Source: Spirochaetaceae bacterium
Lineage (GTDB): Bacteria > Spirochaetota > Spirochaetia > DSM-2461
NCBI GenBank assembly: GCA_029210985.1
Contig: JARGFR010000002.1
Coordinates: 1 to 56,424, forward strand
Length of the DNA: 56,424 nt
Direction: 5' to 3'
Shown here: positions 6,490 through 44,698 of the stretch, piece by piece
Numbering within the stretch: position 1 is the stretch's first letter
Layout of the letters: each line of letters opens with the position of its first letter
Program-made: the position numbers and the translations under genes
The notes under the pieces: model-generated
Told to the model about the DNA's origin: nothing
Seen by the model: the letters and a program-made list of their open reading frames with translations, nothing else
Database searches by the model: none

Positions 6490-6533
6490 ACACGTGTCGG
6501 GCCGATCCTCGGTGATGACAGAAGGAGTCATAC

Positions 6534-7337: not shown

Positions 7338-7351
7338 CACAGGTAGCTAAG

Positions 7352-7387
7352 AAAAAAAGGTCGACGCTTCTGGCGCCGGCCTTTTTT
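7352..7387. terminator. Bidirectional rho-independent terminator
   Basis: A-tract, then GGTCGACGC, loop TTCTG, then GCGCCGGCC, then a T6 tract. Nine pairs with one A-C mismatch and one G-U. It lies between the convergent FMN-binding gene and the 1590-residue gene and has T-runs on both strands. Confidence 0.8.
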
Positions 7388-7424
7388 CGCACATTTTTAG
7401 GCGATGTTCCTGAGAACAGCCGAC

Positions 7425-10400
7425 CTAGAACCGGAACTCGGCCTCCATTCCCAACTCCCATCCGTTGACAAACTCTCCATCCCGTCCGCCAAGACCCAGA
7501 GTGAGCCAGCCTTTGAAGTGCCCGGTATCCTGGAAAACCCACGAGGATTCGTGGTGCAAAAGGAACCCCAAGTCCGAAATGGTTTCCGCCGGAGCATCAG
7601 GCCACGGATAGAGCCCCCGGACGCCGATCCGTTCCGTGTTTTCCAGGTGATGCTGCTTGGGAATGGCACGATTCACCAGGGGCAGATGGAGCACATCTTT
7701 ACTCGGCGTCCTCCATCGATATTCCACACGTCCCTCCTGCATGGTTTGCCTCATGTCGGGGTCCCAGTGCCACGAGACGCGATGATCCAGTACCAATTTA
7801 CGATTCCTCGTACCCCCGAAGCTCCAATCCGCCTGCCATACCAGTTCTTCGGGATCCGGCACGCCGGTGCCGTTTTCATCCTGCAGGCTCACCTGCACCA
7901 GGCCGCTGATTTCTTCGGTGTTGTAGATGGGAATGACGGGATAGCGTCCGAAACGCCCGAAGAGATTCACCGCGCTGAAGCCCACCGAGCTTCGCCATTC
8001 ATTCTCCCAGCCGAACGTGTCGCCTTTGCGAAGATATCGCCGTTCCAGTGATGCATCCGCGTAGGAGGGTACGAACAGATCCATGATTCGTGACCCGCCG
8101 ACCCGGGTCATTTCCAGGGTAAGTTCGGTTTCGTAGTCGGCTTCATTGAAGCCATCGGTTTTCCCTCCGAATATCCTTCCGTCTTCCTTTCCGAAAATTT
8201 CCCTGAAAGGGGCATATGTGAAGAGTGGAAACTGACCTCCGAGGCCCTCAGCGTAGACTCCCCACGCATCGCTGTAGCTGCTGCTGTTCGCGGTGGAAAG
8301 ACCCGCCAGCTGTCGGAGATTCCGCCGGTACGAAGGCGTTACCGACCAGGACTCAAAAGTCAAAGGAAACGACAGGCGCCCGGCCCACCGGTTTTCCTGG
8401 TTCCATTCCGGAGCCCGCGCGGCCTTGATGCGGACTTCCGGATCCCATTCCACAGAAAAGACGCCCCAGCGGAAGGCTCCGAACGCCTCGTGGTGGGCTT
8501 CTCTGTTCGTGATGGTTTTTTTTGACGGCAGCAGATACGCGTAGTCCCCTATCCACGACGAGAAATAATCGCCGGCAAATTCAGGTTCCTCCGCGGTGTT
8601 CATCACATAGCGGATATCGAGTCTGGCATCCCAGTTCTCGCCGCCCCAGCCGGTCTCTCCGCCCCAGGCCTGCACAAGAGATTCGCCGTCATAAAGGGCT
8701 TCACCGAAGATTCGCGCTTTGCCGGGCCTGAAGACAAGATTCATGTCGTTCTGCCGGGAAAATGTAAAATCGTTCCCGGCGATCCCCATGGAATAGGAAT
8801 CCCCCACCCAGAAGACATTGTATCGGGCCGGTATCCTCAATGAGTGGCTCCCGGACCAGATTTCAGCCCCCTGACCCCAGGTGGTCCGCCAATCGGTCTC
8901 CACGCCGACACCCAGGACATCCGCGCCGGCGGAGAAGGTCCCCGTTACCGCGGTATTTCCCCGATCCAGACCGGACACCACCTTCCCCCCGGCGAATTCG
9001 GTCCCGCCTTCGAGACTGATGTTCCCCAAAATCGGGAACCTGCCCACGGCGGCGACATCCTCCGGATATCGCCAGTAGCCCCGGAATTCGGCTCCGCCGG
9101 TGATGGAGTAGGCCGGGTCGGTGAAGTGGATTTCATCGAGGTAGAGGGTGCCGGAATTGGCACTCGAACCGGCATCGTTGGTTTCATCGGCTCCGGAAAG
9201 AACAAACCGCGTAAGGGTTTCGGCATTCTTATCGATATTCAGGTAATCGATGGAGGCACCCCGAGCGGAACTCGCCGTTCCGCCGGCGATATCCACGGTT
9301 ATGCGGTCCCATCCGTCTGCAGCAGGGGTTGCCCAGGAAACGATGATGCCTTGATTGTTCTCATCGGTGATTCTGGCCGTGAGGGGCCCGAGACTTCCGG
9401 ATTTATTGCGGACATAAAACACCGCCGTCCGGTAGGCCTCCATGGGGACGCCCGAGAACCAGGAGACCGCTTCCCATCGGTCGTCGGTGGCTGAAGCTGT
9501 GCCCAGGTCGACACCGCCGGCGTCGGTTCCCCAGCGGAGCCGCATGGCCTGGTTGGATTCCCCGTTGGGGTGAAAGAGCTCAGCTACCTCGGGATAAGCG
9601 GATTTCAGACTGTTGTCTTCAATTTCATCACCGGCGACGTCTTGGGGCGTCACGAGGACGTCCGACGGATCACGGATTTCAGTACGAAAGGCGCTGCCTT
9701 CGAAACTCGGGGCCCCGGCGATAAGGCGGCCGGAGGCTGTACCGCCATCCGCAGCAAGGAGCAGACGCCAGGATCGGGCTTTCTCCAGTCGCGCCCGATC
9801 AGCGCCCGTCAGAGCAATCCGTGCCGTCGCCCAGGAGCCGCCCCAAGCTCCGTTCACACCGCCGCCTGTCCATTCAATGTCGGTATCTGTCGAGAGATTC
9901 CATTCCACAAACGAACCGGCATCCGCGCCGTTGATGGCCCCGTCATCCTGGTGGTCCGCCGATTCGCCGATTTCCCCGATTTGGAGAACTAGAGTCGGTT
10001 CCGTTCCGCCGGCATTCAGAAAACGGATCGGAATCTCCAACGCCGTGTATCCTGAGAGATCGATGGGCCCCTCCGCGTCGGTAAGGGCATCTCCGGCGCT
10101 CCACTGGGCGACTCCCAGGTTGAAGCGCAGTTCCATCACCCGGCCGTCGGTGGGATCGCCGTCCCGGTCCGCGGCCAGTCCCGGTCCGTCCACACCGGTG
10201 GAAGACGCTCCGGGCCATGTGTAGTCGTTCAGGATTTCCCGGCCGAAGGCGTCATACGAGATGTAGGAGTAGCGGTCCAGATCGATCCTGTCGGCCGGCG
10301 GCGTCGGCGGTATCGACTGCACATCCGCCGGTGAACTCACCAGATTGTCGTTGAAGAGAGCCAGTCCATAACCGCCCCCGTCCATGCCGAACAGGCGCAG

Positions 10401-19906: not shown

Positions 19907-19941
19907 GGGTCGTTCCCGTTTTCGGGGTGCGGCCCTTTTTT
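19907..19941 (+). terminator. Rho-independent terminator after the tRNA
   Basis: GGGTCG-TTCCCG and CGGGGTGCGGCCC form an imperfect GC-rich stem with a TTTT loop, followed by T6. It ends 27 bases before the SET-gene start codon chosen here. Confidence 0.75.
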
Positions 19942-19968
19942 GCTTTATCCGGGAGGATGAGAATTCAA

Positions 19969-20592
19969 ATGACCTCCGGTGAGCTTCGCGCTCTGTTCGA
20001 CAGTCTCGGCATCGAATATCTCGCTTCCAATCGATACCGCCCCGCTTCTCTGGCGTTCCGGGACGTCACCCGTACCCGCTACTACCGCCGCAGCAGGGAA
20101 GAGTTCCGGCGCCTGGAAGAAGCCTACGGAGCTCAGCTGGCGTCTCAAGAATACCTCGCCGACGAGGATGAATCGGGTCTGGACGTTCGGCACATCGGCG
20201 GACTTCTCGGCTCCGGACTATTCGCCGCCCGGTCCTTCGCATCCGGAGACCTCATCGGGGAATACACAGGCTTTGTCCGGCCGGCCCGCCGGGGTCGACC
20301 GCTGCCCGGCGGAGGATACTCCACGGACTACGCCTGGGGATTTCCCAAAGTGCGCAATTTCGGGAGACCCTTGGAAATCGATGCCCGGGAGGCCGGCGGT
20401 CCGCTTCGCTTCGCCAACCACTCCGGAGAGGCTAATGCAGAACCGGATCATCTGGCGATCGAAGGCCGCTGGAGAGTTATTTTTATTGCCCGGCGGGACA
20501 TCGCGCCGGGGGAGGACATCACCGTGGACTACGGGCAGGCCTACTGGATCGGGGGAGAACGGGAACTGGTGATTTCTCCCGTCGCGTCCTAA
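19969..20592 (+). CDS. SET-domain protein, putative protein-lysine methyltransferase
   Basis: 207 residues from ATG 19969 (GGGAGG 12 bases upstream; ATG 19957 is in frame but abuts that site). An N-terminal ~70-residue segment precedes a SET domain. Visible are GSGLFAARSFASGDLIGEYTG-type entry (about 85-105, SAM-binding G-x-G), RFANHSGEANAEPDH (the R-x-x-N-H-S motif, about 152-166) and ITVDYGQAYW (the D-Y-G/W ending, about 185-194). These are the SAM-binding and catalytic-tyrosine motifs of active SET enzymes. No pre-SET zinc cluster is present. Bacterial SET proteins modify ribosomal, histone-like or host proteins; the substrate here is unknown. It directly follows the tRNA terminator, with no obvious promoter of its own. 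Confidence 0.85.
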   Translation: MTSGELRALFDSLGIEYLASNRYRPASLAFRDVTRTRYYRRSREEFRRLEEAYGAQLASQEYLADEDESGLDVRHIGGLLGSGLFAARSFASGDLIGEYTGFVRPARRGRPLPGGGYSTDYAWGFPKVRNFGRPLEIDAREAGGPLRFANHSGEANAEPDHLAIEGRWRVIFIARRDIAPGEDITVDYGQAYWIGGERELVISPVAS

Positions 20593-20595
20593 GCC

Positions 20596-23500
20596 CTATT
20601 CGTAGGCGCCGATGGACCAGGGATTGCTGCGGCCGGTGCCGCCTCGATCGGTGGAATACCCGTATGGCCGCGGTTCGCCGGACAAGTTGAGTCCGCCGGT
20701 CCGTGCCGGTCCGCTTCCGCCTCCCGAGAGACGCCAATTATCACTGAGGAAATCGGCTTCGGCGCCGGCGGCGGTGAAGTTGGCAAAATAGACGGCCGGG
20801 TCCTCGGCGAGGTTCATGAAATTGCCTGATGCGATGCCACCGCCAACGTTGACATAGTCCTCCAAGGAGGGAACATCGGGCCGCGCAGCGCCGCCGCCCC
20901 AGAAGCCGGTATCCGATGCCGGGATATCCAAACCGGTGATGAGATTGCTGATGAATCGCTTGGGAGGTTTTGTCGCATAGTCCGCGTAGCCGACGGCCGC
21001 CGGCCCGCTTGTTTCTCCGGGGATGATGATGTTGTTAATGACGTGAGGCTGTGCCGTGCCGTTCACGCGGATAGCTTCACTGGTATTGCCCTTGGTGATG
21101 CCGCCGTAGACCGTATTGCTGAACAGCCAAATCTGATCGTTTCCGGCGTTGAGGGTGATTCCCCGGGTGATATCCATTGCTCCCGATCCGGCATGGATGA
21201 GGTTGTTGATCAGGGCGACGTTCTGAGCATTGTTGAGTTGGACTCCTGTCGTATTCTGTCCCGTCTCGCCGCCGAAGATATCGTTGGAGTCGATTTCCAC
21301 AAAATCGCTGTCGACCACTTCCACGCCGGCGGTGTCCGGAGATTTTCCTCCGCGGATTCGGTTCCGGACAACACTGATTCCCGAGGACGTCGCAATGCTC
21401 ACACCCCGGGTTACCGATGTTCCGGCACCGGGTTCGAACTCGTTGTTTTCGATCCACGCCGAACTTTTGAACGCCGCCAGACCGATGGAGGAATAATGCA
21501 CCACTCCGACGTCCATGACGGTGTTGCCCGTGATTTCCGGCGAAACGGCGGTGTCAAGATAGAACCCGTAGGCATTACCCGCCGGCAGGGCATCCATGTT
21601 GATCGAGTTATCATGAATCCTCGGGGAGCTTCCCGATCCGATAGAGACCGCGTGCGAGGTATCGCTTGCCGCACCGAATATGGTGTTGCCCCGGATCTGT
21701 GGAGATCCGCCGGTGATGTTGAGAACCCGGGCGAGTCCGGCGCCGACCAGGCTCCGGAGGATGAATCCTTCGATGAGCGGGTCTCCGTCGGCAATGGTGA
21801 GTACGTCGGCAGAAGAACTCTGCAGTTCCGTGGGATAGGCGGATGGACTCCAACTCCATGTGGTCGGGTGGAAACCGCCGCGAATACTGAAGTTCCAAGC
21901 TTCTCCCATGCTGCCGATGATAGGCATGGGGAAGGTGGGGTCGTCCAGATCGTAGGTTCCCTGGGAAACCCGGATTTCCCCGACATCCCATCGGCTCATG
22001 GTGATCGATCCGATTCGTGCGGCATCATAGGCCCGTCCCAGTCCGCCGAAGGGATGACTCCGTGTGCCCAGAACGACGGTATTGTCCCCGTTTACCGACG
22101 GATCGCCCACGTAAATGACGGAGGGCATAGCCACCCCGTCGAACTCATACAGCCCAATGGACCAGCCGTACATGCCCAGATCGGGGCTCCTGGGCGTCCC
22201 ATCTCGGTCATGGTCCACCCCACCGGGATCGGTGCTGACAGCCGCGGCGTCCCGCCCGCCGTAGGCCAGATCCGGCGTGACGCCGGTGGTGATGCGGCCC
22301 TCACTGTCGAAGTTGAACGCGTCGACGAAATTGGCGGCGAGGATCGGATACGCGCTGATTGTTTGGGCTTGGTGGAGCGCTTCATCGGATCCGGTCGAGC
22401 CGGTCACTCGCATATCCACGGTTCCCAATGCGTCGTCGAAGGCATTTCCTTCGATCAGAGGACCCGAACCGGTGGAGATGTCGGTGTTGTCTGAGTTAAT
22501 TCCCACCAGAGTGCCGCCAGCGGATCGGAAAAGGTTGTTGAGAATCATCATCGGCGTGGTGGGATTCGAGATTTCGATACAAACTCCGGAGTCTCGGGTG
22601 CCGCCGCCGGTGGAGACGGCGTTGCCGATAATTTCGTAACCCGCCGCGCCGACATCGGTAATCCGGACTCCGGCGGTATCCGTCGAATTGGCGCTGTTGA
22701 TGATGTTGTGAACCACATAGGTCCGGGCGGATGGTGCTTCCAGGAGTACACCTGTGGAAACAGCGCCGCTGCCGGACCGAATCCGGTTGCCTCGAATCCA
22801 GGAGTCTCCCGTCATGGATACGGTGGAGATTCCAACTGAAGCCGACGAGGCGTTTCCGGCCTGCACTTCGTTGTACGACCAGTCTCCTTCGGCGAAGACA
22901 CTCCGGATGCCGTAGCTGCTTCCGGCACCGGTGTCCGCCCCCTGGACGTAATTTTCATTGATATTCGTCCAGGTCGTGCTGTTCAGCATGATACCGTAGG
23001 CGTTACCGGACGCGGTTCCCGATGATGCGGCGATGATGTTTCTCCGGATGTCCGGGGAGGGGCCGGTGGTCGAGATGATCGAGAGACCCGATACGTCCGC
23101 GCCGCCGTCGCCTCCGACCAGGGTGGAATTCTTCACCGTGGGCCCGGCGTTTCCGGTAATTTTCAGGGCCGCGGTCCAGTTCAACCCGGGAGGGCTGTCG
23201 ATAACCACGCCGTCCAGGATGGACGAGACGTCGATCGGCGCGAGGGATCCGTCATACGTGAGAACCGCTTCGGTGGTGATAACATCCAATCCTCCCGCGA
23301 GCCCCGGAGCGACGAAAAGAGTGGCATGGGAATTCCGAACGGAGGGATCCTCTATGTTCCATCGGCTTGAGAAATCCGATGTATATCCGCCGTAGATGGA
23401 GACCGGCGAGTCGATTACGGCTCCCGCGCCGCCTCCCAGGACATAGGTGCCCTCAGCCGCCTTGATATCCCAACGTCCGGTCGGGATTCCCACCAGAGCC

Positions 23501-24423
23501 AAGGCTTCGGTCAGAGTGGGTACGGGGTCCGATCTGTTGAGTCCCGATGCCCCGATACTGCCCCAGGGTGCCATGTAGATGGCGCCGGGATCCCAGATCA
23601 GATCCGCTGTGCCCCGGAGTCCTTGGTATCCGTCGGCATCCACAAAAAAATCGTCGGGGATGTAATCCAGGTAATCCGGCACCTCGATGTGGTGGGTTCC
23701 CGGTGATTTCGGCCAGGTCGGGGCCAGGGCGTGCTCCGGTTCGGTTGCCAGATCCCAGGCGCCGGTATCCACGGCAATTCTTTCCCAGTCCACTTGGAGA
23801 TCGTCCCCATTGGATACCGGATTCTGGGCGCCGGTCATCGGAATTTCCCGATCGAGCTCATCCACATAATACAGTCTGACGAAGGCGGGATTCATCGGCG
23901 GGCCGTTGGCGGCGAAATTCGGATTGTCGATGAGTTCCAGTTTCGGCCGGATGGACTTGCGTACCCGGACGAGAATAGCTTTAGAGGATATTTCGCCTGT
24001 ACTCGGGTCGGTTTTGGTAATGTTGAACCATCGGTCCCAAGGAGAACCGGCTTTGTGGAATTCCACAGGCATGCCCGAGGATATGGGGATTCCATCCACA
24101 TCGACTACAGCGTCCTTGGGGATGATGTCAAAGGTGACCGCCAAAGGCGTAGCCGCATCGGGCACCAGGGGAGTGACACCATCGTTCTGGTAATAGGGAA
24201 CGATGATGTCGATGATATCCGGGTTGCCTTTCACGGAAACCAGGGCATTCCGGTAGAGCAGTCCGGGCAGCTGATCGGAGACCAGAAATCCGATTTCCGA
24301 GAACTGGAGTGAATCGTCCACCGAACGCAGAAAATCCCCCCGTTTCAGGGCATTGCAACCCGTCCAAAGAACCAGGCTGGAGAGGAGCAGCATCATTGTC
24401 GTGAAACGCCGGTGGGATTTCAT
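20596..24423 (-). CDS. Large parallel beta-helix lipoprotein
   Basis: About 1275 residues from ATG 24421-24423, which gives a normal lipoprotein signal (SSLVLWTGC, lipid Cys near 24). An in-frame ATG at 24511-24513 has a better Shine-Dalgarno (GAGGTG) but would give a ~53-residue leader. After a beta-sandwich-like region (about 30-250) come two similar right-handed beta-helix segments (about 250-690 and 735-1160). They are made of 20-25-residue coils such as IRGNTIFGAASDTSHAVSI and VVRNRIRGGKSPDTAGVEV. Each half closes with a W-S-I-G-x-Y-E motif (GWSIGLYEF and the C-terminal PWSIGAYE). These are features of pectate-lyase-like or adhesin folds, but no catalytic signature was recognised. Probably a surface or periplasmic carbohydrate-binding or scaffold lipoprotein. 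Last gene of the cyclase operon. Confidence 0.75.
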   Translation of the reverse strand: MKSHRRFTTMMLLLSSLVLWTGCNALKRGDFLRSVDDSLQFSEIGFLVSDQLPGLLYRNALVSVKGNPDIIDIIVPYYQNDGVTPLVPDAATPLAVTFDIIPKDAVVDVDGIPISSGMPVEFHKAGSPWDRWFNITKTDPSTGEISSKAILVRVRKSIRPKLELIDNPNFAANGPPMNPAFVRLYYVDELDREIPMTGAQNPVSNGDDLQVDWERIAVDTGAWDLATEPEHALAPTWPKSPGTHHIEVPDYLDYIPDDFFVDADGYQGLRGTADLIWDPGAIYMAPWGSIGASGLNRSDPVPTLTEALALVGIPTGRWDIKAAEGTYVLGGGAGAVIDSPVSIYGGYTSDFSSRWNIEDPSVRNSHATLFVAPGLAGGLDVITTEAVLTYDGSLAPIDVSSILDGVVIDSPPGLNWTAALKITGNAGPTVKNSTLVGGDGGADVSGLSIISTTGPSPDIRRNIIAASSGTASGNAYGIMLNSTTWTNINENYVQGADTGAGSSYGIRSVFAEGDWSYNEVQAGNASSASVGISTVSMTGDSWIRGNRIRSGSGAVSTGVLLEAPSARTYVVHNIINSANSTDTAGVRITDVGAAGYEIIGNAVSTGGGTRDSGVCIEISNPTTPMMILNNLFRSAGGTLVGINSDNTDISTGSGPLIEGNAFDDALGTVDMRVTGSTGSDEALHQAQTISAYPILAANFVDAFNFDSEGRITTGVTPDLAYGGRDAAAVSTDPGGVDHDRDGTPRSPDLGMYGWSIGLYEFDGVAMPSVIYVGDPSVNGDNTVVLGTRSHPFGGLGRAYDAARIGSITMSRWDVGEIRVSQGTYDLDDPTFPMPIIGSMGEAWNFSIRGGFHPTTWSWSPSAYPTELQSSSADVLTIADGDPLIEGFILRSLVGAGLARVLNITGGSPQIRGNTIFGAASDTSHAVSIGSGSSPRIHDNSINMDALPAGNAYGFYLDTAVSPEITGNTVMDVGVVHYSSIGLAAFKSSAWIENNEFEPGAGTSVTRGVSIATSSGISVVRNRIRGGKSPDTAGVEVVDSDFVEIDSNDIFGGETGQNTTGVQLNNAQNVALINNLIHAGSGAMDITRGITLNAGNDQIWLFSNTVYGGITKGNTSEAIRVNGTAQPHVINNIIIPGETSGPAAVGYADYATKPPKRFISNLITGLDIPASDTGFWGGGAARPDVPSLEDYVNVGGGIASGNFMNLAEDPAVYFANFTAAGAEADFLSDNWRLSGGGSGPARTGGLNLSGEPRPYGYSTDRGGTGRSNPWSIGAYE

Positions 24424-24526
24424 CGTTCTCAATATACCCTTGGTGAATCGTAATTTCCGTCCGGCGTCGGTGCGTTGATGTGGATTGTTCATGGAATTTG
24501 GGTGAGCAATCATGATATTCGACACC

Positions 24527-25921
24527 TCACATTCGGAATCCCCGGCGGAACATCAGGGAAATCATCGGAATGGACCCATCTTCGTCGAATCCGCTGAGAT
24601 AAGTGATGCCGAAACGTGTCAGTCTGCTGTAGTCGGCGAAGTCCAGGGCGAATCCCAAACGGACAAAAAGAAGGTTCTCGATGCCGAACGCGGCGGCATA
24701 GTCCGACCACATGTTGCCGATGCCCAGAATCCATACCGGCGCGATTTTTCCCCTCACCAGGGGGCGCCAGTAGCCGGAAATATCCATGCTGCCGATGAAA
24801 TGAAAATCTCCGCCGTTGGGCGCCGAGAGCGGACCGGACACACCGGCAAATCCCCGTGCCTCGACACCCAATCCCCGAGCAAAGGGCGTCGTCCAACCGG
24901 AATGGACCGTCGCGGCGATTTCGAAAGCCGGAATCGCCGGCAGCGTGTCGTCGGAACCGGGGATGTTGATGACGGTGGGGGCCCAGCCCATTTGGAGCTC
25001 GAAGCGGGGCTGGGTTTTGGGTTTCTCCACCATCACCGGCTCGGCGACGGTGACGGCGGTCTCAAGTCTGCTCTCCATTCCGGCGGGATTGGTGAGGATG
25101 AGCTCGTAGACCCCGGGCTCGGCGCCCTCCAGGTCCAGAAAAGCCTTGGCCTCACGCCCGTCGGTCACTTCCAGGGCGGCCACGTTCAGGTATCCTCCCG
25201 GACCCTTGAACGACACCCTCATATCTTTATCGAAGGCGTCCCCGGATATGGTGACCGGCACCAATCCTTCGCCGGCCAGCTCGACGGTGTCGAGTTCAAC
25301 GATTTCCGGTGGGCGGGTCGGACGGACTTGGACGGCATCGGGGTGAACAAACACCTTCCCTGAAGGGTCCTTGGCTTCCAGATCCCATTCCCCGGGGGTC
25401 AGTTCGGCCACAGGCACCCTCACAAGGCGTTCTGTCTCGGAGGGTACGGTTTCCACCGGAAGTTTCCGATCCCCGCGAACAAGGAAGAACTCCACCTCAG
25501 GAGACAGAACGGAGGATTCAATCACTATTTCGATGTCCGGATCCCCCTCCCAGAGGGCCGAGGGGGCCTTCACCCGGAAATAAGGAACTCGGGCCCGTTC
25601 AACCCTGAGGGGAATCCAGCCCGAGTCGGAGACGGCACCGCCGAAAGGATTCAGGACGCCGATGCGGTATTCATAGGGTCCGGGAGCCAGATTCAGTTTG
25701 ATTTCGGTGTTTTCGGTTTCGGTTGATATGAAACTTTGTCCGTCCCGTCGTACCTCGATTCGGTAGGCCGCCGCGCCGCTGACGGCTTCCCATCTGATGG
25801 AGAGCGGACCGTCTTCGCCTCTCAGGCTGCCGGAGCTTTGGGCTCCCGCCGTGACGGCTGTCCAGGCCGACAAAGCCAGCAGAATGGCCAGGGCGTTCAG
25901 GAAGGGCTTTCGTCCTACCAT
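24527..25921 (-). CDS. Secreted fibronectin/IPT-like protein with C-terminal barrel (second copy)
   Basis: 464 residues from ATG 25919-25921 behind GGGAGG at 6 bases; an ATG two codons earlier overlaps that site. Signal peptide (SAWTAVTAGAQ, cleavage near 28), an FN3-like module (about 35-115, IRWEAVSGAAAYRIEVRRDG), two IPT/Ig-like modules (about 120-310), a linker, and a ~130-residue region with aromatic strands (about 325-464) ending FRRGFRM, suggesting an eight-strand outer-membrane barrel. The same order is found in the next upstream gene, so they are tandem duplicates that have diverged strongly. The start overlaps the upstream stop by 7 bases. A cell-surface receptor or scaffold role is inferred. 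Confidence 0.7.
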   Translation of the reverse strand: MVGRKPFLNALAILLALSAWTAVTAGAQSSGSLRGEDGPLSIRWEAVSGAAAYRIEVRRDGQSFISTETENTEIKLNLAPGPYEYRIGVLNPFGGAVSDSGWIPLRVERARVPYFRVKAPSALWEGDPDIEIVIESSVLSPEVEFFLVRGDRKLPVETVPSETERLVRVPVAELTPGEWDLEAKDPSGKVFVHPDAVQVRPTRPPEIVELDTVELAGEGLVPVTISGDAFDKDMRVSFKGPGGYLNVAALEVTDGREAKAFLDLEGAEPGVYELILTNPAGMESRLETAVTVAEPVMVEKPKTQPRFELQMGWAPTVINIPGSDDTLPAIPAFEIAATVHSGWTTPFARGLGVEARGFAGVSGPLSAPNGGDFHFIGSMDISGYWRPLVRGKIAPVWILGIGNMWSDYAAAFGIENLLFVRLGFALDFADYSRLTRFGITYLSGFDEDGSIPMISLMFRRGFRM

Positions 25922-27417
25922 CTCCATCCTCCCTCCAACCTGGGCTGGACGGACCAGGAGGTCCGGCTGAGATAGTGCACCGCACCGATATCGCATGTGG
26001 CGTCGATGAACCACCTCGGATTGATATCGATCCGGGCTCCCACGCCGTATCGGCTCACGAAATCCATCGAATCCAGATCCCTGAGAGGACCGCTGCCCAT
26101 ATCCTCATCACGATTGAGTTCCGGGGATTTGTATCGGGACAGGCCGATGCCCGTCGATGCCCGCAGGAGGAGATTTACGGGAAAATCGAAGGGTGTGGCG
26201 TAGCGGAAACCCAGCAGGATATCGGTCCGGACCAGGTTGATTTGGTAGAGGGGGTAATCGGTGGGATGCCGCGTGATTGCATAGGAGGCTTCCCAGCCCA
26301 GGCCGTCGAGTATCGGGATGCGGCGTACCAGGCTGTTATGGAATTCCTGGGAGTAGTTAAGGGTGAAACCCACCCAGCTCGGACGGTAATATTCGGCGGT
26401 CTCTCCGAGGACAAATGCGGTTTTCCATCCCCCGGAAACCGAATGGGGAAAGTCTCCCATCGGTCTGGGTTCCCGTTTATCTATGTCCAAGGCATTCATG
26501 GCCGCGATTTCTTCTTCGGTGAGCGGCCGGGGAGTCACTTCGAACAGTTTATCGTCTTCATCATTTCCCCCTGACGGGTTGGTGACTCTGACGCCGTACC
26601 AGCCGGGCTCGACGTCCCTCAGATTGAGGCTGTATTCCATTTGCCCTTCACCGTTTTTTGAAAGCAGTGCGGGCTTGATATTCGACGGGCCGAAGAACTC
26701 CACCAGAGCACGATCTTCCAGACCGGAAATTTCAAGAGCGGCCGGGTTATGAACCTCCCCTGCGGGAATCTCCCGGGGATTGAACTTGCGGATTCTGGGG
26801 CGCAGCCGTTCAAGAACCGTCACCGCGCTGTCCATTCGACTCACTCTACCGTCCGGATTGGTCATGGTCAGGTTCCAGGAGCCGGGCCCGGGCTCCCGGC
26901 GTCCGATTTCCAGGATGATTTCCCTCCATGGCGTGTCGTCATTCCCCTCCAGAGATCCGTCTCCAAGGGAATCTGCCGACAGCTCGATAACCTGGTCTTC
27001 CGGTCCGTCCAGCTGATACAGCGATCCTTCCCGGTGGCCGGTGACTCGCAATAAGAATGCGTCCGAGCTGCCTTCGTGGATTTCCCTGGGCTGGATATCG
27101 ATGAGGAAGGGAACCACCGGCGCCAGGATGCGCAGCGGGCTCCATTCACCGGTTGCGGCCACTTTCCCGAAGGTGTTGATGACATCAACCCGGAATTCGT
27201 AGTTTCCCGGAGGCAGGAAGAGGGGGAGGCCCGGCTCATCGCTCCGGGTTTCCAGAACCAGTTCTCCGTCCTGGACAATCTCGATACGGTAGTGGTCCGC
27301 TCCATCGACGGGTTCCCATTGGATGCGATCCTGGGCATGAATTAATCCGGCAGCGCCCCCGGAGGTCAGCAAAACCGCGAGAAAAATTCGTAATGGAGCG
27401 GAAAACCTACTCGGCAT
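25915..27417 (-). CDS. Secreted fibronectin/IPT-like protein with C-terminal barrel (first copy)
   Basis: 500 residues from ATG 27415-27417, chosen to give a normal signal peptide (LLTSGGAAGLIHAQ); there is no clear Shine-Dalgarno, which fits coupling to the upstream gene it overlaps by 11 bases. Order: FN3-like module (about 30-110, IQWEPVDGADHYRIEIVQDG), two Ig/IPT-like modules (about 115-310, the second opening RPRIRKFNPREIPAG), a charged linker, then a barrel-like C-terminus (about 345-500) ending LEGGWRW. The W-x-P-V-x-G-A-x-x-Y-R-I-E motif recurs in the upstream FecR protein, so the operon's proteins share modules. No enzyme motif seen. Confidence 0.7.
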   Translation of the reverse strand: MPSRFSAPLRIFLAVLLTSGGAAGLIHAQDRIQWEPVDGADHYRIEIVQDGELVLETRSDEPGLPLFLPPGNYEFRVDVINTFGKVAATGEWSPLRILAPVVPFLIDIQPREIHEGSSDAFLLRVTGHREGSLYQLDGPEDQVIELSADSLGDGSLEGNDDTPWREIILEIGRREPGPGSWNLTMTNPDGRVSRMDSAVTVLERLRPRIRKFNPREIPAGEVHNPAALEISGLEDRALVEFFGPSNIKPALLSKNGEGQMEYSLNLRDVEPGWYGVRVTNPSGGNDEDDKLFEVTPRPLTEEEIAAMNALDIDKREPRPMGDFPHSVSGGWKTAFVLGETAEYYRPSWVGFTLNYSQEFHNSLVRRIPILDGLGWEASYAITRHPTDYPLYQINLVRTDILLGFRYATPFDFPVNLLLRASTGIGLSRYKSPELNRDEDMGSGPLRDLDSMDFVSRYGVGARIDINPRWFIDATCDIGAVHYLSRTSWSVQPRLEGGWRW

Positions 27418-30175
27418 ACTGCAGCTCGTCGGTGAGGATGGTGGGCGCCTCATCGGCGATGTTCAATGTCAGAGTAAAGGGCACTCGAGTTTCAGGAGCA
27501 GTTCGTGTGATGCCCACATCCCGGTACTCGGAACGTGCCTGTATGCTGACGATGAAACTGCCGACATCGAGAATGCTCAGATTGCTCAACACGAACCTCC
27601 CGTCGGTCAGACCGTTCTCTTGGAGAAGCGGCGTCGACGAACCCTCACTATACAACGCCAGATCGTAGAAATCCGTATTCTCTGAGGTTTGCCATGTGAA
27701 CACCAGGTTTCGCCGGCCGGTCATATCGATAGTATCACCCGGGTTGGGCGAGAGGACAATCGGAGCAGGAGGATCGGGTACGCCGCCGACGGTGAACCGG
27801 GAAACGGTGCTCTCCGGCGCTTCCAACCCGAAGCTGTCCCGGGAGAGGACTTTCCAGGTGTAGGAGCCTGAGTCCAATCCCTCCAAATTGAGGCGCGGTT
27901 CGGTGGTTTGATAGAGTCTGGTGACCGATCCGTTGTCCAGTTCCACAGTCCAGCGGTTCAATAAGGGATCTTGACTCCAGGTCAGTGTGATGCCCTCCCT
28001 CAGTGCCTCCAGCCCTCCGATGAATCGGCCATTGGCCGGAGAGGAGGGTACGGCGGCGTTGTAGCGCACCAAATTGTCCACGTTGAAACGGTAGGTTGCG
28101 CTTTCGCTGAGGTTTGAGGCTCCGTCAGGCGGATTGTCCCGTATGGAGGTGAGCTCCACGCCGTAGGACCCCGGTCCGAGTCCCGGGGGCAGGGTGAATT
28201 CCCTGTCCAGGGCACTGACTCTGTCGTCCCGCCCGATGGCCGTGCCTTGGGAATCCCTAAGGATGACGCGGTATGCATCAGCGCCGGGGGCGGGATCCCA
28301 AGCCACTCTCAGGGTTGTGGTTCCTACCAGAGAAATCCCGGACCCCGGTCGGGGCAGGTTGAGGACAGGGGGACGGAATTCGCTGCGAAGTCGGAAGACC
28401 GCTTCTACGCTTTCGGCGAGCATCCGGCCCGAATCATCGAGAATCTGGACTTTCCAGACATAGGCTCCTTCCCCCGGCAGGGGCGCGGTGAAGGATTCGC
28501 CGCGGACAAGACTCTCGATGATTTTGGTCCGTTCGCCGCCGGCCGCATCGCCTTGACGCTGCAGGAGGAACCGGGATGTGCCCGGCACACCGCTGCGCCA
28601 GGTGAAATCGTAGGGCGAATAGGGCTCGAGTTCCTTGATGTCTCCCGGAGCGGGATCGATGAGTTCCACCCGGCCGGTGACCGGTCGGATGGTGAAGCTT
28701 CGTATATCCGAATCCGGTACGGGCTGACCGTCCGATGATGTGGCGCCCACTCTCCAGTAGTATGTACCCGGGGCCGGAGCGGTGAGGAGACGTCTCCAAT
28801 TTTCCGGCGCGTCCGAAGCGGCCACTGTGGAGTCGAAATTCTCGTCAACAGCCACTTCGATCCGATAGGAAACCAGCCCCGACTGACTCTGCCAGCGGAA
28901 GTCGACACCGTCTCGGACATCCAATGCGGAAATGGCCGCACCGTCCGGGGGATTCACCAGCACAAGGGCATCACGTCCGACTCGCCGTTCCAGGGTGAAG
29001 CGGCGCTCTTCGGGTACAATCGGGACATCGAGAATGCCTCGACGGTATCTGGGCGTCACTCTCCACCACCATGTGCCTTCATCCAGCTCATCAATCAACA
29101 CCGATGATCCGGTGATATTTCGATTGACATCGATTTGCGCAAACGATGCGGTTCTCGAGAGTTCGACATCATAGGAGTCGGCGAACCAGGAACGTTCCCA
29201 CTGTATCGATACCACCGGGGCTTCGCCGCGGAAGGGCAGGACAAGCTCCGGAGCCGGAGCGATGGGTCTGGCTCGACGTTCGATATCCACGGTGAACACA
29301 TTGATCGATCCCGCCGCACCGGTTGCGGCATCCACGACCCGCCAGTACCAGACACCCGGAGCCAATACCAATGCGGAGCCGGTTTCGCTCTTTATTCGGG
29401 TGACGGGAGATTCGGTTTCGTTGAAGTCCGCGTCGGCGGACACCTCCAGAGTCGGATTGGCCCAGTCGGCAAAGAGTTCCCAGGAAAAATCCACCCGGCG
29501 TTCATCTTCATAGGTAAGGAGGAGTGCGTTGGATTTCGGCCTGAGGGGATTTACGGCCACCTGTTCCCGTACCGACTCTCCGCTTCCTTCGTCTATCCTC
29601 AGGACCGATTCGACGTCCAATACTTGGGATTCTGAACCGGTTTGTACCCGAGCTTCACCCTCGGTGACGGTGATGCTGGTCTGAGAACCTTCCACCCTGC
29701 TCAGATTCACCGACCCTTTATCCAATGCCACGGCGGTTCCCTCGGCGGTGACGGTGAGACCCTCACCGCCGGTGGCCGATAAGTCACCGCCGACAAAATT
29801 AATGTTCCTGGTTTCTCCAAAGAGATCCAGAACAATATAGGTGTCGGGTCCCAGAGCGATTTCGTCCAATTGTTCCGTGCCGTCGAGGCCGACATTCTTG
29901 AGAACGATGACGGCACCCGATTCGGATGAGGTGCGGATGGCATCCAGATTGTAGACCGACTCAGCGCCTTTGAGGGTTCCCCACCGGGACTGCCTGTCGA
30001 ATCGACGCTGGGCCTGGCCTCTCACTTCAACCACTTCTCCGACGACAACGCCGCCGACATTTTCGACGGTTTTGTTCAACTCGGAGTAGAACAGCCAGCC
30101 GAAGAATCCCGCCGATCCGGTGAGGAGGAGGGTAACGAGGAGTTTACGAATCGAAGATTTCGTACTTGACTTCAT
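27407..30175 (-). CDS. Membrane-anchored FecR-domain protein with a series of fibronectin-like modules
   Basis: 922 residues. One N-terminal membrane helix (about 11-31, LLVTLLLTGSAGFFGWLFY) leaves the rest outside the cytoplasm. FecR-like domain about 42-200 (VVVGEVVEVRGQAQRRF start and an ITVTEGEARVQTGS end). Then six or seven FN3-like modules to about 900, recognised by recurring W-x(6-8)-Y-R/D-V/I-E/I strands (FRWQSQSGLVSYRIEVAVDE, VAWDPAPGADAYRVILRD) and by YYWRV/YTWKV endings. It lacks the classic C-terminal secretin/STN part of FecR. The start lies 32 bases inside the cyclase gene, in another frame. Next to a membrane cyclase, it is a good candidate for the periplasmic sensing partner. 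Confidence 0.8.
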   Translation of the reverse strand: MKSSTKSSIRKLLVTLLLTGSAGFFGWLFYSELNKTVENVGGVVVGEVVEVRGQAQRRFDRQSRWGTLKGAESVYNLDAIRTSSESGAVIVLKNVGLDGTEQLDEIALGPDTYIVLDLFGETRNINFVGGDLSATGGEGLTVTAEGTAVALDKGSVNLSRVEGSQTSITVTEGEARVQTGSESQVLDVESVLRIDEGSGESVREQVAVNPLRPKSNALLLTYEDERRVDFSWELFADWANPTLEVSADADFNETESPVTRIKSETGSALVLAPGVWYWRVVDAATGAAGSINVFTVDIERRARPIAPAPELVLPFRGEAPVVSIQWERSWFADSYDVELSRTASFAQIDVNRNITGSSVLIDELDEGTWWWRVTPRYRRGILDVPIVPEERRFTLERRVGRDALVLVNPPDGAAISALDVRDGVDFRWQSQSGLVSYRIEVAVDENFDSTVAASDAPENWRRLLTAPAPGTYYWRVGATSSDGQPVPDSDIRSFTIRPVTGRVELIDPAPGDIKELEPYSPYDFTWRSGVPGTSRFLLQRQGDAAGGERTKIIESLVRGESFTAPLPGEGAYVWKVQILDDSGRMLAESVEAVFRLRSEFRPPVLNLPRPGSGISLVGTTTLRVAWDPAPGADAYRVILRDSQGTAIGRDDRVSALDREFTLPPGLGPGSYGVELTSIRDNPPDGASNLSESATYRFNVDNLVRYNAAVPSSPANGRFIGGLEALREGITLTWSQDPLLNRWTVELDNGSVTRLYQTTEPRLNLEGLDSGSYTWKVLSRDSFGLEAPESTVSRFTVGGVPDPPAPIVLSPNPGDTIDMTGRRNLVFTWQTSENTDFYDLALYSEGSSTPLLQENGLTDGRFVLSNLSILDVGSFIVSIQARSEYRDVGITRTAPETRVPFTLTLNIADEAPTILTDELQYAE

Positions 30176-32969
30176 GCTCTTCCGTGTCGGCGACTTCTGA
30201 GAAGCTTCCGCTGATCCCTACCATAGCGCGCATTTCAGCCAGATTCCGGGGCCGCTCGTCATCGTCGAGCCGACCGAGAACGGCGTAGATCTGCTGAGGC
30301 CGGGATTTGCCCTTCACTTTGATTTTATTCATCGGAACCAATGAAAAGACTCCCTCCACCTTATCCGCGGTGGATTGGGAAATCAGGATATCCGTACCCA
30401 TCGGTTTATTCAGCTGTTCGATGCGGCTGGCCAGATTGACCGTATCTCCCATATGTGCCCATTCCATCTTTGTCGATTGATCGCCCATGATGCCCACCGT
30501 GGCCGGACCGCTGTTAAGGCCGCAGCCGATTTGGAAGAACGGTCTGTGGGCGGTTCCCCGCCCGACGTTGAAGGTGCGCAGCGCGGCTCTCATCATCAAT
30601 GCGCCGTTGATGGCGGCTTCGGCATTATTGGGGATGTCGGTCATGCTGCCCCAGACGGCCATCACGGCGTCCCCGATGAATTTGTCCACCGTACCTTGAG
30701 TTTCTTCAACGCAGGGTACCATCACCCGGAAGTATTCCGAAAGATTGTCCAGTACGAGCTGGGGATCGCCCATGGCTTCACTCATGGAAGTGAAACCCCG
30801 GACATCGGAGAAGAACACCGTGACGTCCTTGGTTTCGGCGTGATCCGGCAGGCTGTCGTTGTCAATCATTCGCGCCACTTGGCGGTTGACGAAGGCCTCT
30901 ATCTTCTCCATCAAACGTTCCCTGGATTTCAGTGCGGGAATCATGCCCATGAAGTTCCGGGTCAGCTGTCCGACTTCGTCCTTCGTTTTGGGCTCGATGG
31001 TAATTTCGTAGTTACCGGCTTTGATCTGCCGGGTGGCCAAGGCCAGTTCTTTCAACGGTTTGGACAGGCTCTGGGAGTAATAAAACACTCCCAGGATGGT
31101 GAGGGACAGAACCGCGCCCAGAAGAGTGAGATTGAGAATCTGTATGCGGTTGACGATGTCGAAGGCGTCCCGTTCCAACACGGTGGTTACCACCCCGAGA
31201 TTGGCCAGAGGAATCAGAGCGAAGGAACCGATGACTCTCACCGGTCCGTTGATGGTTTCCTCGGAGAATCGTATCTGCCCTTCCGGGAGACCCTGGGCGT
31301 ACATTTCATTGAACACCGGCGAATCCCGAATGGCTTCACCGCCGAATATCCGGGTGAAATCCGGATGAGCCAGTATTTCGCCGTCGGAATTGACGATGAC
31401 GGTTGTGGTGAGTCCTTCCTGGATACGGACGCTTTCGGCCAGGCCGGAACCGATATCCGCCAGTACAACCAATGCTTTCTGTTCGTTACCCAGGAGGAAC
31501 GGCGCGGCCATGGCCACCACCGGAGTCTCCAGATTGGGTATGAGAGGTGAAACGTTGATTACGACCGTTTCACCGCTTTGTGTTTTCTCCAGCTCTTCAG
31601 ACCTGGCGGCCAGGATGCCGCTGAGAACCGCCTGTTCATCGAATATCCGATTGGACCGAAACCAGTCGCGGTTGGAAAACTCGAATCCGCTACCCGGTAC
31701 ACCCACATAAACCAGCGATCGTGAATTGGCGAAGAAATCATCCACCAGGCCGGCCTGCCCTCCGGCGGCGGAGCCGACTTGGAAGAGAAGGTTCGCCGAG
31801 TCGAAGATCTGCACCAGCTCCTTTTCGGCCTGTTGGGCCACGATGCGGGAGAGCGAAATATTGGTATCTTCCACTCGGTTCTGGATTTCCGTCCTGAAAA
31901 AGAACAGTCCCACCACCGAAAGAGAGGACATGGCGGTAATGATGATGGCGGAAACAATGAGGATGAGTTTGGCGCCGACGGGAAATCGAATCTGGAGATC
32001 GCGATTGCGGATTTTCTCTCGCTTTCGCAGGGAGCGTCCTGCTCGTTTGCCGTCATGCTCAAGGCTGCTCAAAGAAGCCGGTTCCTGGGCGGGAGATGGG
32101 GTTCTCGGGGGAATATACGGAGGTGAATGAATCTCCCGGATGATGACTCGGGGTTCGTCCGAGATTTCGTCCTCGGGTTTCTTCAGATCTTTAACGGATC
32201 GGCCGCTCAATCTGTTTCCGTCAAGCCAGGAAGCTGTTTCAGGGACAGTGTCCAGAAGCAGGTAATAAGGCCGCTTCGCTTTGTAGCTCCGATAATTCTT
32301 CCAGGGAATAGCCAGCGGTCCGTGGAGCAGAATCTCGGCCTTCCCGGCGGCTTTTTCCAATGTCTCTATCAGTTCCTCAATCGATCCTTCCTGGTTTTCC
32401 AGATCGAGATACACCAGGGAAAGGTAGCGATTCGCTCGGTGACGTTTCTTGGCATAGGCGGGAACGGTGATGGCATGGCTGAAAGATTCATCCTGACCGA
32501 CCGACAGCTGTCGGACAGCCGAGACCACATTGACGTCGATCTGTCGGCGTCGGAACAGGGACATGAGATCGGCGGTGGGAACCGGCCGCTTCAGTTCGGT
32601 TCCCTGGAGAACCGCTTTCTGACTGTCGAGGAAAACACCGGATGAGGGCTCGATTTTCCGGGCGTCACAGAAATCGCGGGTTCTCAGGACGATCGTTTTC
32701 ACCGCCGAGGTGAGTTCCGGCGACCAACTGGAACGCTTGTCCTGGAGCTGTGCGATAAACGCCGCTCCGCCGGCGGCGATATCGGCAAAAGATGTCAGGC
32801 CCAGAAATGCGGTCGTCCAATGCATCCGTCTCAGCACGGGCACCATCTCGCCTAATGCCGTCAGCGATCGTGTTTTAATCGCTTTCTGGTAGATATTTTC
32901 CAGGCTCCGCTGCTTTTTTTTCAGCATCACCCATAAGGTGTTTTCATCTATCGTATCGTACTGGCTCAT
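30144..32969 (-). CDS. Membrane class III adenylate/guanylate cyclase with Cache-like and HAMP domains
   Basis: 941 residues. The first ~330 are cytoplasmic and unrecognised (start MSQYDTIDENTLWVMLKKKQ; includes SFSHAITVPAYAKKRHRANR). TM1 about 333-360, Cache-like periplasmic domain about 365-605, TM2 about 610-632, HAMP about 633-685, cyclase catalytic domain about 710-890. Catalytic signs: metal-binding Asp in VFFSDVRGFTSM and in DKFIGDAVMAVWGS, and the N-x-x-x-R transition-state pair in DTVNLASRIEQLN. The purine-selecting position reads E-W-A-H, so cAMP is more likely than cGMP but not proven. GAGGG precedes the ATG. First gene of the five-gene operon. The cyclic-nucleotide-binding protein at 43475 may be its receiver. 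Confidence 0.9.
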   Translation of the reverse strand: MSQYDTIDENTLWVMLKKKQRSLENIYQKAIKTRSLTALGEMVPVLRRMHWTTAFLGLTSFADIAAGGAAFIAQLQDKRSSWSPELTSAVKTIVLRTRDFCDARKIEPSSGVFLDSQKAVLQGTELKRPVPTADLMSLFRRRQIDVNVVSAVRQLSVGQDESFSHAITVPAYAKKRHRANRYLSLVYLDLENQEGSIEELIETLEKAAGKAEILLHGPLAIPWKNYRSYKAKRPYYLLLDTVPETASWLDGNRLSGRSVKDLKKPEDEISDEPRVIIREIHSPPYIPPRTPSPAQEPASLSSLEHDGKRAGRSLRKREKIRNRDLQIRFPVGAKLILIVSAIIITAMSSLSVVGLFFFRTEIQNRVEDTNISLSRIVAQQAEKELVQIFDSANLLFQVGSAAGGQAGLVDDFFANSRSLVYVGVPGSGFEFSNRDWFRSNRIFDEQAVLSGILAARSEELEKTQSGETVVINVSPLIPNLETPVVAMAAPFLLGNEQKALVVLADIGSGLAESVRIQEGLTTTVIVNSDGEILAHPDFTRIFGGEAIRDSPVFNEMYAQGLPEGQIRFSEETINGPVRVIGSFALIPLANLGVVTTVLERDAFDIVNRIQILNLTLLGAVLSLTILGVFYYSQSLSKPLKELALATRQIKAGNYEITIEPKTKDEVGQLTRNFMGMIPALKSRERLMEKIEAFVNRQVARMIDNDSLPDHAETKDVTVFFSDVRGFTSMSEAMGDPQLVLDNLSEYFRVMVPCVEETQGTVDKFIGDAVMAVWGSMTDIPNNAEAAINGALMMRAALRTFNVGRGTAHRPFFQIGCGLNSGPATVGIMGDQSTKMEWAHMGDTVNLASRIEQLNKPMGTDILISQSTADKVEGVFSLVPMNKIKVKGKSRPQQIYAVLGRLDDDERPRNLAEMRAMVGISGSFSEVADTEEHEVKYEIFDS

Positions 32970-33082: not shown

Positions 33083-33111
33083 TTGAATACGGAATACCCC
33101 CCGTATATACT
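33083..33111 (+). promoter_or_regulatory. Promoter of the HDAC-family gene with internal dyad
   Basis: TTGAAT (33083-33088), 17-base spacer, TATACT (33106-33111). A perfect inverted repeat ATACGG-N8-CCGTAT (33087-33106) spans the spacer. The start site would fall at 33118-33119, the A of the ATG. Confidence 0.75.
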
Positions 33112-33118
33112 CGGCTCT

Positions 33119-34114
33119 ATGATTCTCTTCGACCCAAGCGCTCTTCTTGACTTCCCTCGTTACGGCATACAAATCCCGGCCCTGGACTCCCGAAAGATCC
33201 GTACGATCGAATTTCTTCGTTCTCACCCTCAGCTCTCCGGTCGTGAAAGGGAGTGGCTGCATGAAGGATTTGACGACACAACCGAACCGGAGCATTTATT
33301 CCGTGTTCACTCCCGGGATTACGCTCAGGGGTTTTTTGATGAACAGGCGGCCGACCGGTTAAAAGCGGCCTTTGAATTGGTGAATCCCGACGGAACCTAC
33401 AACCGCTGGAATCCGCAGTCGGCTGAGAATCCGTTGGAGGAATTAATTCCTTCACTGATGAAAATGGAAGCCGGAACTTGGCGAACGGGTAAAATCGCCC
33501 TTGATGAGGGCTTCTGCCACTACATGGGCGGCGGTGCCCACCATGGGCATAGAGATTTCGGACATGGATTCTGTCCGGTCAACGATGTCGCCGTCGCGAT
33601 TCGCAGGCTCCAGAATGAAGGAGCGGTGAACCGTGTTTGGATTATCGATGTGGACGCGCATAAGGGTGACGGCACAGCGGCCATTTTCCGAGATGACGAC
33701 TCGGTCCGGACGCTGAGCATTCATATGGCTTCCGGCTGGCCTCTGGATGGTTCACTTCCTCCCTCACACCCATCCTGGACTCCCAGTGATATCGATATAC
33801 CCGTCGAATCCGGGGAAGAGCAGTTTTATCTGAGTCGACTCTCCGAGGGGCTCGACCGACTTGCCGATTCTTCCGGACCGGATATGGCCTTTGTCCTCGC
33901 AGGGGTGGATCCGTGGGAAGGGGATATTCTGCCCTCCACGCATCTATTGAACCTCAGTATGGAGCAGATGATCGAACGGGATCGATTGGTGTATCAATTT
34001 CTGGAAGCTCAAAGCCTGCCATCGGCTTGGGTGACCGCCGGAGGCTACGGAGAGGATTCATGGCGCATTCATTCGGCGTTCCTGGAGTGGGTTCTCCTTC
34101 GGCGGCTCACATAG
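33119..34114 (+). CDS. Histone deacetylase / acetylpolyamine amidohydrolase family protein
   Basis: 331 residues. Zinc-dependent deacetylase signs in order: GGGAHHGHRDFGHGFC with the catalytic His pair (about 141-156), IDVDAHKGDGT with the Asp and His zinc ligands (about 180-190), GVDPWEGD with the second Asp ligand (about 263-270), and AGGYGED with the catalytic Tyr (about 308-314). Members remove acetyl groups from polyamines, acetoin-related compounds or proteins; the substrate cannot be told here. There is no Shine-Dalgarno, and the promoter position predicts a leaderless mRNA starting at this ATG. The 3' end overlaps the convergent glycosylase gene by 46 bases. Confidence 0.9.
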   Translation: MILFDPSALLDFPRYGIQIPALDSRKIRTIEFLRSHPQLSGREREWLHEGFDDTTEPEHLFRVHSRDYAQGFFDEQAADRLKAAFELVNPDGTYNRWNPQSAENPLEELIPSLMKMEAGTWRTGKIALDEGFCHYMGGGAHHGHRDFGHGFCPVNDVAVAIRRLQNEGAVNRVWIIDVDAHKGDGTAAIFRDDDSVRTLSIHMASGWPLDGSLPPSHPSWTPSDIDIPVESGEEQFYLSRLSEGLDRLADSSGPDMAFVLAGVDPWEGDILPSTHLLNLSMEQMIERDRLVYQFLEAQSLPSAWVTAGGYGEDSWRIHSAFLEWVLLRRLT

Positions 34115-43474: not shown

Positions 43475-44698
43475 ATGGGCAACCCCCTACAACTGGGACT
43501 GGTAAGTTACAACAAGGGCGCTTATATCACCATCGAGGGTAAAAACGCCGATCAATTTTACATCATCCGTTCCGGTAGCGTTCGCATCGAAAAAGATTTG
43601 GAACTGCCGGAAGAGGATGACGATACCGTCCTCAGACCGGGAGATTTCTTCGGGGTCGTATCGACGATGTCGAATCATGCCCATATCGACACGGCTGTGG
43701 CACTGGAAGACGTGACGCTGATTACCGTCCGTCCGGACCAGTATTCCCTGCTCATCGAGCGCAACACCCCCGTGGCGATGAAAATCATCAATGGATTCTC
43801 CCGACAGGTTCGGCTGCTGGACCAGGCCCTGACCAGGCTGACGTTCAAGAGTTCGGTTGAAGCCGACGAACGGCATCTCTTCCAGGTGGGTGAGTACTAC
43901 GCCCGTCAGAATCAATTCAATCAGGCTTTTTACGCCTACTACAAATACTGTGTTTCCAATCCCAGCGGATCGAACGTTGAGGTGGCCAAACAACGAATGG
44001 CGAAGATCAGACCCTATGCGAAGACGGCCAATTTAAAGCCCAATACCGAATCCTTCATTCGCCAATATCCCAAAGATACCATGTTGTTTGCCGAAGGCGA
44101 GAGCGGTCCCGAGCTCTACATCATTCAGAAAGGCAGCATCCGCATCACCAAAATCGTGAACGACAACGAGGTACTGCTGGCACTGCTCAAGAGCGGCGAT
44201 ATCTTCGGTGAGATGGCGCTGCTGGAGAACAAACCCCGAAGTGCTTCGGCGATCGCAAACGAGGATTCGGTTCTCATGGCGGTGAATCGGGCGAACTTCA
44301 AAGGAATGGTTGTCGAGCAGCCTAAGGTGATCTCCAGGCTCACCTCTTCACTGGCCGAGCGTATCTGGAACCTCAATCGTCAGCTGCGTAATACCATGAT
44401 TGAGGATCCCGTCGGCCGGCTTTACGACAGCCTGGTGCTGGAACTCGAGAAAGAACGCATGGACCTGACCGCCCGGATATCCCACACCTTCGGCTTCGGT
44501 CCTGACGATCTGGTGAACATGGTGGGACTGGCCAAGGATACCGGCCGAGCGGCACTGAGCACTTTGCTGGAAGGCAAGGATCTCACGGTCGTGGACAACA
44601 AGCTCTATTCTGCCGACATCTCTCAGATTAAAAAGTCTGCAGAATATTACAAGAAGATGGAAATCCGCCGGGAATCCCGGCGGGAACGTTCGCGATAG
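43475..44698 (+). CDS. Protein with two cyclic-nucleotide-binding domains flanking a TPR-like segment
   Basis: 407 residues, cytoplasmic. First cNMP-binding fold about 1-115 (FYIIRSGSVRIEKD, GDFFGVVSTMSNHAHID): the phosphate-binding cassette lacks the canonical Glu and Arg, so it is probably non-binding. Short helical repeat about 125-170 (EYYARQNQFNQAFYAYYKYC). Second cNMP fold about 190-310, with an intact cassette GEMALLENKPRSASA, expected to bind cAMP or cGMP. The C-terminal ~90 residues are helical and could hold a divergent winged helix, but I cannot recognise one. It may act as receiver for the cyclase at 30144. Monocistronic, ending 9 bases from a convergent gene. Confidence 0.88.
   Translation: MGNPLQLGLVSYNKGAYITIEGKNADQFYIIRSGSVRIEKDLELPEEDDDTVLRPGDFFGVVSTMSNHAHIDTAVALEDVTLITVRPDQYSLLIERNTPVAMKIINGFSRQVRLLDQALTRLTFKSSVEADERHLFQVGEYYARQNQFNQAFYAYYKYCVSNPSGSNVEVAKQRMAKIRPYAKTANLKPNTESFIRQYPKDTMLFAEGESGPELYIIQKGSIRITKIVNDNEVLLALLKSGDIFGEMALLENKPRSASAIANEDSVLMAVNRANFKGMVVEQPKVISRLTSSLAERIWNLNRQLRNTMIEDPVGRLYDSLVLELEKERMDLTARISHTFGFGPDDLVNMVGLAKDTGRAALSTLLEGKDLTVVDNKLYSADISQIKKSAEYYKKMEIRRESRRERSR
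44665..44683. terminator. Strong GC hairpin at the convergent 3' ends
   Basis: CCGCCGGG-AAT-CCCGGCGG, eight perfect pairs, inside the last codons of the cyclic-nucleotide protein gene and 25 bases before the convergent stop. No T-tract. It may help stop or pause transcription in both directions. Confidence 0.45.

Follow-up and report, generated by a model that had tools for sequence, protein, structure and literature searches.

A conserved cyclase, FecR and barrel gene order in Spirochaetota: a candidate trans-envelope receptor cyclase

Why would a bacterium place the gene for a membrane-bound nucleotide cyclase at the head of an operon that otherwise encodes envelope proteins? The question is raised by a locus in a 56,424-nucleotide stretch of contig JARGFR010000002.1 from a Spirochaetaceae bacterium, the whole of which was analysed and is called here the window. 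Five ORFs lie head to tail on its minus strand, at the positions given in the original prediction, and the overlaps of 32, 11 and 7 bases proposed for the first three junctions were found again with start codons placed ahead of the signal sequences: the cyclase and FecR genes share 30144-30175, the FecR gene and the first barrel gene (FN3A) share 27407-27417, and FN3A and the second barrel gene (FN3B) share 25915-25921, or 13 bases if the ATG at 25927 is used. The last junction, between FN3B and a lipoprotein gene, measures 1 base at the ORF level and becomes a gap of about 103 bases when counted from the likely lipoprotein start, the ATG at 24423. The answer that we favour, with a probability of roughly 60%, is that these genes code for a trans-envelope receptor cyclase, in which the barrel would sense at the surface, the FecR rod would span the periplasm and the Cache-HAMP cyclase would make cAMP. 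The operon is flanked by a divergent histone-deacetylase-like gene (33083-34114, plus strand) and a convergent SET-domain gene (19927-20592, plus strand), and a SET-like gene holds the same convergent position in the sister genome G203 (L148). Promoter and terminator scans scored fewer matches than shuffled sequences, and the strand that carries the operon showed no sigma-70-like promoter.

The first gene (30144-32969, minus strand) encodes a class III nucleotide cyclase of 941 aa, as judged from the ORF list, domain models and an alignment of relatives. Its cytosolic N-terminal region (aa 1-330) is followed by a transmembrane segment (335-353), a Cache-like periplasmic part, a second transmembrane segment (611-629), a HAMP domain (632-673) and the catalytic domain (712-895; 30285-30836, minus strand), which was placed by its PF00211 match and by alignment. 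The cyclase and HAMP domains expected at this locus both score above their cut-offs (PF00211, 5.2e-22; HAMP, 1.9e-9); the Cache-like part that had been proposed with them is a weak match (dCache_1, 1.3e-4, below the Pfam cut-off). The two metal aspartates (D722 and D767) and the transition-state asparagine and arginine (N845 and R849) that mark a class III cyclase are present and, together with K763, invariant among 53 aligned relatives. At the purine site, the lysine is kept in 50 of 50 cyclases and the threonine is replaced by alanine in the window cyclase and its close relatives of the same genus. Seven cyclases of this close group carry the motif WAHMGD (in the window at 30450-30461, cyclase aa 837-840) in place of the usual YTVIGD or similar, a change that, judging from the residues, may alter the preference between ATP and GTP. 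The Ala of this genus, where relatives carry Thr at this purine-specificity site, speaks against a firm assignment of the product nucleotide; cAMP rather than cGMP is the most likely one. The N-terminal 330 aa (31985-32969, minus strand) matched no Pfam family; cytosolic extensions of a similar kind occur in several other clades and are absent from the Treponema-like cyclases. The genome has 17 matches to cNMP-binding domains, two of them within one window protein (43475-44698, plus strand, two PF00027 domains), which is a candidate effector.

The second gene (27407-30175, minus strand, 922 aa) encodes the FecR-type periplasmic rod, identified from PF04773 matches in its family and from its predicted structure. 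An N-terminal transmembrane anchor (aa 12-30) precedes a FecR-like beta domain (44-212; 29540-30046, minus strand), seven FN3-like domains (217-903) and a conserved C-terminal tail of low model confidence that ends in QYAE. The model (pLDDT 85.4) shows the N-terminal helix, the FecR-like beta domain and the seven FN3-like domains, and Foldseek retrieved with it only generic Ig/FN3 arrays. For the membrane-anchored FecR and fibronectin-like protein of the original prediction, the anchor and the FN3 domains were recovered directly; the protein itself gave no match to PF04773 in the Pfam search, and its membership of the FecR family is established through 15 of 20 aligned family members that match PF04773 (best, 1e-12) and through the model. 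The FN3-type motif W...Y-R-I-E, said to recur in three of the products, is indeed found in FN3A (IQWEPVDGADHYRIEI), FN3B (IRWEAVSGAAAYRIEV) and the FecR protein (FRWQSQSGLVSYRIEV). A second FecR-domain protein is encoded in the window (973-3144, minus strand, 723 aa, PF04773 6.7e-10); it has no adjoining cyclase, and a 476-aa gene (3149-4579) lies directly upstream of it on the same strand.

FecR proteins normally pair with FecI-type sigma factors, and such a pair has been described in Leptospira (LIC_12757-LIC_12756). This habit of the family speaks for a classical anti-sigma/sigma regulator with an indirect link to the cyclase, but the operon holds no sigma factor gene and only about 11 residues precede the transmembrane segment of the rod, too few for an anti-sigma domain. 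With neither a sigma gene in the operon nor a cytosolic segment on FecR, sigma-factor regulation was rejected and we regard it as very improbable. The tail of the rod was also considered as a docking motif. It follows the pattern P-x-x-[ILQ]-Y-x-E, with Y or F at position -3 in 45 of 77 sequences; in 34 of these 45 the codon overlaps what could be the start of the following gene, and where this overlap is missing Y or F is found at -3 in 11 of 43, versus a background of 7.5% (p 2e-4, among relatives that are not independent). A clean docking motif was rejected, since the tail is partly forced by its overlap with the next start codon and is only suggestive.

The two fibronectin/IPT/barrel proteins that had been proposed were both recovered, FN3A through its domains and predicted fold and FN3B through its alignment with FN3A along the whole length. 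FN3A (25915-27417, minus strand, 500 aa; domain matches, alignment and predicted structure) comprises a signal sequence, an FN3 domain, two IPT/Ig-like domains and a predicted 8-strand beta-barrel (25921-26445, minus strand), and ends in GWRW. The best structural matches of the barrel, in a model with a pLDDT of 87.4, include Ail, OmpA, OmpX and NspA, and the signal sequence, the eight strands and the C-terminal aromatic residue are those of a small outer-membrane beta-barrel, an assignment by predicted fold that claims no sequence homology. As in outer-membrane barrels, the last residue of the aligned relatives is mostly aromatic or hydrophobic. FN3B (24527-25927, minus strand, 466 aa) was assigned by family match and by this alignment, and ends in GFRM. 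Both proteins match the LIC11435 family (NF047756), at 2.5e-11 for FN3A and 1.3e-21 for FN3B, and FN3B is a relative of this family as well as of FN3A; the two scores, the higher of 76.8 and the lower of 43.1 bits, lie far below the equivalog cut-off of 380 bits. In other members of the phylum, too, FecR genes are followed by relatives of the LIC11435 family.

Would these genes be scattered in related genomes, as chance neighbours should be? A search with the single FecR sequence gave matches in 96 of 198 spirochaete genomes, and a profile search of genome contigs with a three-sequence FecR alignment found six loci. In a sample of 59 loci chosen by the FecR match alone (L061-L079, L081-L100 and L121-L140), the cyclase lies directly upstream of FecR in 58, one fused ORF included, and a barrel relative lies directly downstream in about 44 by our own count; the loci are related and cannot be counted as independent, fragmented assemblies are common among the genomes and the genes of the relatives are simple longest-ORF calls. 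Within the sample of weaker matches the cyclase is directly upstream in 20 of 20 loci, and plasmid pTS2 of Treponema saccharophilum is annotated with a cyclase, a FecR family protein and a hypothetical protein in the same order as here. Far from being scattered, the genes keep the order class III cyclase, FecR rod and outer-membrane barrel across Spirochaetota, and this is the conserved core; a gene order held throughout a phylum is far from what chance would produce. Not every locus has the three parts: the cyclase is missing from one of the 59 FecR loci (L077, in genome G063, which has FecR and barrel) and the downstream barrel from about a quarter. In some genera of the window's family, a full-length match to the cyclase was absent. 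Behind the cyclase at three loci (L083-L085), the FecR relatives are longer (1000-1064 aa) and are not followed directly by a barrel gene; one aligned member matches PQQ beta-propeller models.

The link between cyclase and FecR is also visible in their divergence. The distances of the two proteins correlate with a Mantel r of 0.74, reached by 0 of 1000 permutations; when FecR partners were swapped between paralogous loci of one genome the correlation fell, and 53 of 2000 swaps reached the observed value, in a modest test whose distances are simple identities. At one locus (L072, 6201-10991, in genome G146) cyclase and FecR form a single, topologically compatible ORF of 1596 aa on a 2.8-Mb contig, which is either a natural fusion or a frameshift.

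The genes behind the core have a narrower distribution. A second, often smaller, barrel-like gene following the first barrel is seen in the window's family. The fifth gene (20596-24423, minus strand, with its ORF opening at 24525) encodes a protein of about 1275 aa from the ATG at 24423, and its description as a beta-helix lipoprotein stands as far as the gene goes: the beta-helix is suggested by sequence repeats and by a NosD-type similarity of 7.9e-5, far below the cut-off, and the lipoprotein by a lipobox-like WTGC. This gene lies behind the barrels in the window, in G202, in G203 and, on a short contig, in G201, all of one genus; outside this genus only weak partial matches were found. The idea of five genes forming a general unit was consequently rejected: three genes make up the conserved core, the second barrel is an addition at the level of the family and the beta-helix gene is tied to the operon only in the window's genus, where it is probably a surface accessory with a ligand-binding or adhesive role.

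One of the loci probably brings the core into the syphilis bacterium. It encodes, in the same order as the window, a 614-aa cyclase, a 671-aa FecR protein (PF04773, 1e-12) and an FN3/barrel ORF (L076), and an internal ATG in the last gives a product of 374 aa, the length of Tp0483. On protein length, gene order and the layout of that genome, this trio appears to be TP0485-TP0484-TP0483 of Treponema pallidum. Directly behind its barrel there is neither a second barrel nor a beta-helix gene, whereas the window has both. TP0483 has been studied only as a fibronectin- and laminin-binding protein, with binding to both reported in vitro and contradictory reports on its surface location, whereas we read the barrel of the window as part of a receptor. 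Somewhat tentatively, at a little under even chances, we propose that the core is a phylum-wide, unnamed, three-part receptor cyclase, in which a separate barrel would act on the FecR/FN3 rod and the rod, whose C-terminal tail would dock it, on the Cache-HAMP cyclase; TP0483 would then be a subunit of the receptor and not, in the first place, an adhesin.

The reported binding by TP0483 would suit an envelope scaffold or adhesion structure, in which barrel, rod and lipoprotein tie together outer membrane, periplasm and surface and are merely co-regulated with a cyclase that senses through its own Cache domain. The cyclase does have a Cache-like periplasmic part of its own, the FecR rod and barrel resemble structural linkers, and G063 has both of them without a cyclase. 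Yet nothing in the arrangement is as constant as the pairing of cyclase and FecR (58 of 59, with one fused ORF known) and the barrel is absent more often than the cyclase, whose tight linkage a pure scaffold does not need; we judge the scaffold unlikely, though it is the strongest competitor of the receptor cyclase.

How would a receptor cyclase of this kind work? What the sequences show is the gene order with its conservation, the domains, the catalytic residues, the predicted folds and the joint inheritance; contacts between the proteins, the direction of signalling, the ligand and cAMP as product are what we infer in the following scheme. The barrels of FN3A and FN3B would face outside, with their FN3/Ig-like domains hanging into the periplasm. 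The rod, with its FecR domain at the inner membrane, its seven FN3 domains and its conserved tail at the far end, would bridge both membranes and contact the barrel at one end and the cyclase at the other. Events at the surface (a ligand, a contact or strain) would be passed to the Cache-HAMP region and switch the class III cyclase, whose product, most likely cAMP, would serve the cell's many cNMP-binding proteins.

Part of this scheme has precedents, and Sinorhizobium meliloti lends it the strongest outside support. There an external protein signal is transduced via CyaK and CyaD1/D2, cyclases of the inner membrane, and this transduction needs the outer-membrane barrel NsrA. Plasmids searched with the catalytic domain of the window cyclase pointed to pSymB, on which a FecR-TPR-barrel-like ORF of 1219 aa (PF04773, 2.3e-15) abuts a CHASE2 cyclase (positions 2184-7792 of locus L151, from NC_003078.1; the ORF is unannotated in PLSDB). 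From its length and the published barrel position (aa 600-1200), this ORF, with its barrel-like C-terminus, is probably NsrA, and the adjoining cyclase CyaK. This system resembles the window in combining an outer-membrane barrel, a FecR domain and an inner-membrane class III cyclase, but FecR, TPR and the predicted barrel form one chain there and the cyclase has a CHASE2 sensor, whereas the window has rod and barrel as separate genes, FN3/Ig in place of TPR, a small 8-strand barrel and a cyclase with Cache-like and HAMP domains; neither a single-chain receptor nor a CHASE2 sensor is found in the window. In Campylobacterota, a cluster of CHASE2 adenylate cyclase, phosphodiesterase, FecR outer-membrane protein and TPR protein has been proposed to form one pathway (PMC9239204); like the window it groups a cyclase gene with a FecR-domain envelope protein, and unlike it has CHASE2, a TPR protein and a phosphodiesterase, with no separate FN3/Ig barrel described. 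Finally, in the mtxA operon of Magnetospirillum a CHASE2 cyclase gene follows that of MtxA, a magnetosome-associated protein of the envelope in which TPR and Ig-like domains are combined; FN3B weakly matches the MtxA Ig-like model, and the cited text reports no FecR gene in that operon, whereas the window has one.

These three arrangements indicate that the functions of cyclase, FecR and barrel recur with different sensor and linker domains, and the combination is already known in kind. The original prediction knew of no system with this exact composition, and for the spirochaete triplet a search confined to the open-access literature yielded no description. The outer-membrane-to-cAMP chain that the prediction suggested gains from the gene order kept across the phylum, and has to be trimmed to three genes in a pairing that is not without parallel. 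What is new is the division over three genes, a FecR protein built as an FN3 rod, a small barrel that bears Ig domains, a cyclase of the Cache-HAMP type, the presence throughout Spirochaetota and the implication for TP0483.

The precedents bear also on direction, which sequence does not fix. Within the operon the genes for surface proteins follow that of the sensor, an order compatible with inside-out control, in which FecR would relay the state of the cyclase or of the inner membrane to the barrel and the lipoprotein and so gate or assemble them. Against this, the catalytic domain lies in the cytosol and shows full conservation, and NsrA, the only related system with experiments found here, signals from outside to the cyclase; we consider inside-out control improbable, clearly more so than the scaffold.

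Signalling from the outer membrane to a cyclase has experimental proof only in S. meliloti, as far as the literature found here extends. If the spirochaete operon is a receptor cyclase, its split and conserved version would make envelope sensing of this kind a general one, would offer the disputed TP0483 an alternative role and would provide the cyclic-nucleotide signalling of spirochaetes with an identified input.
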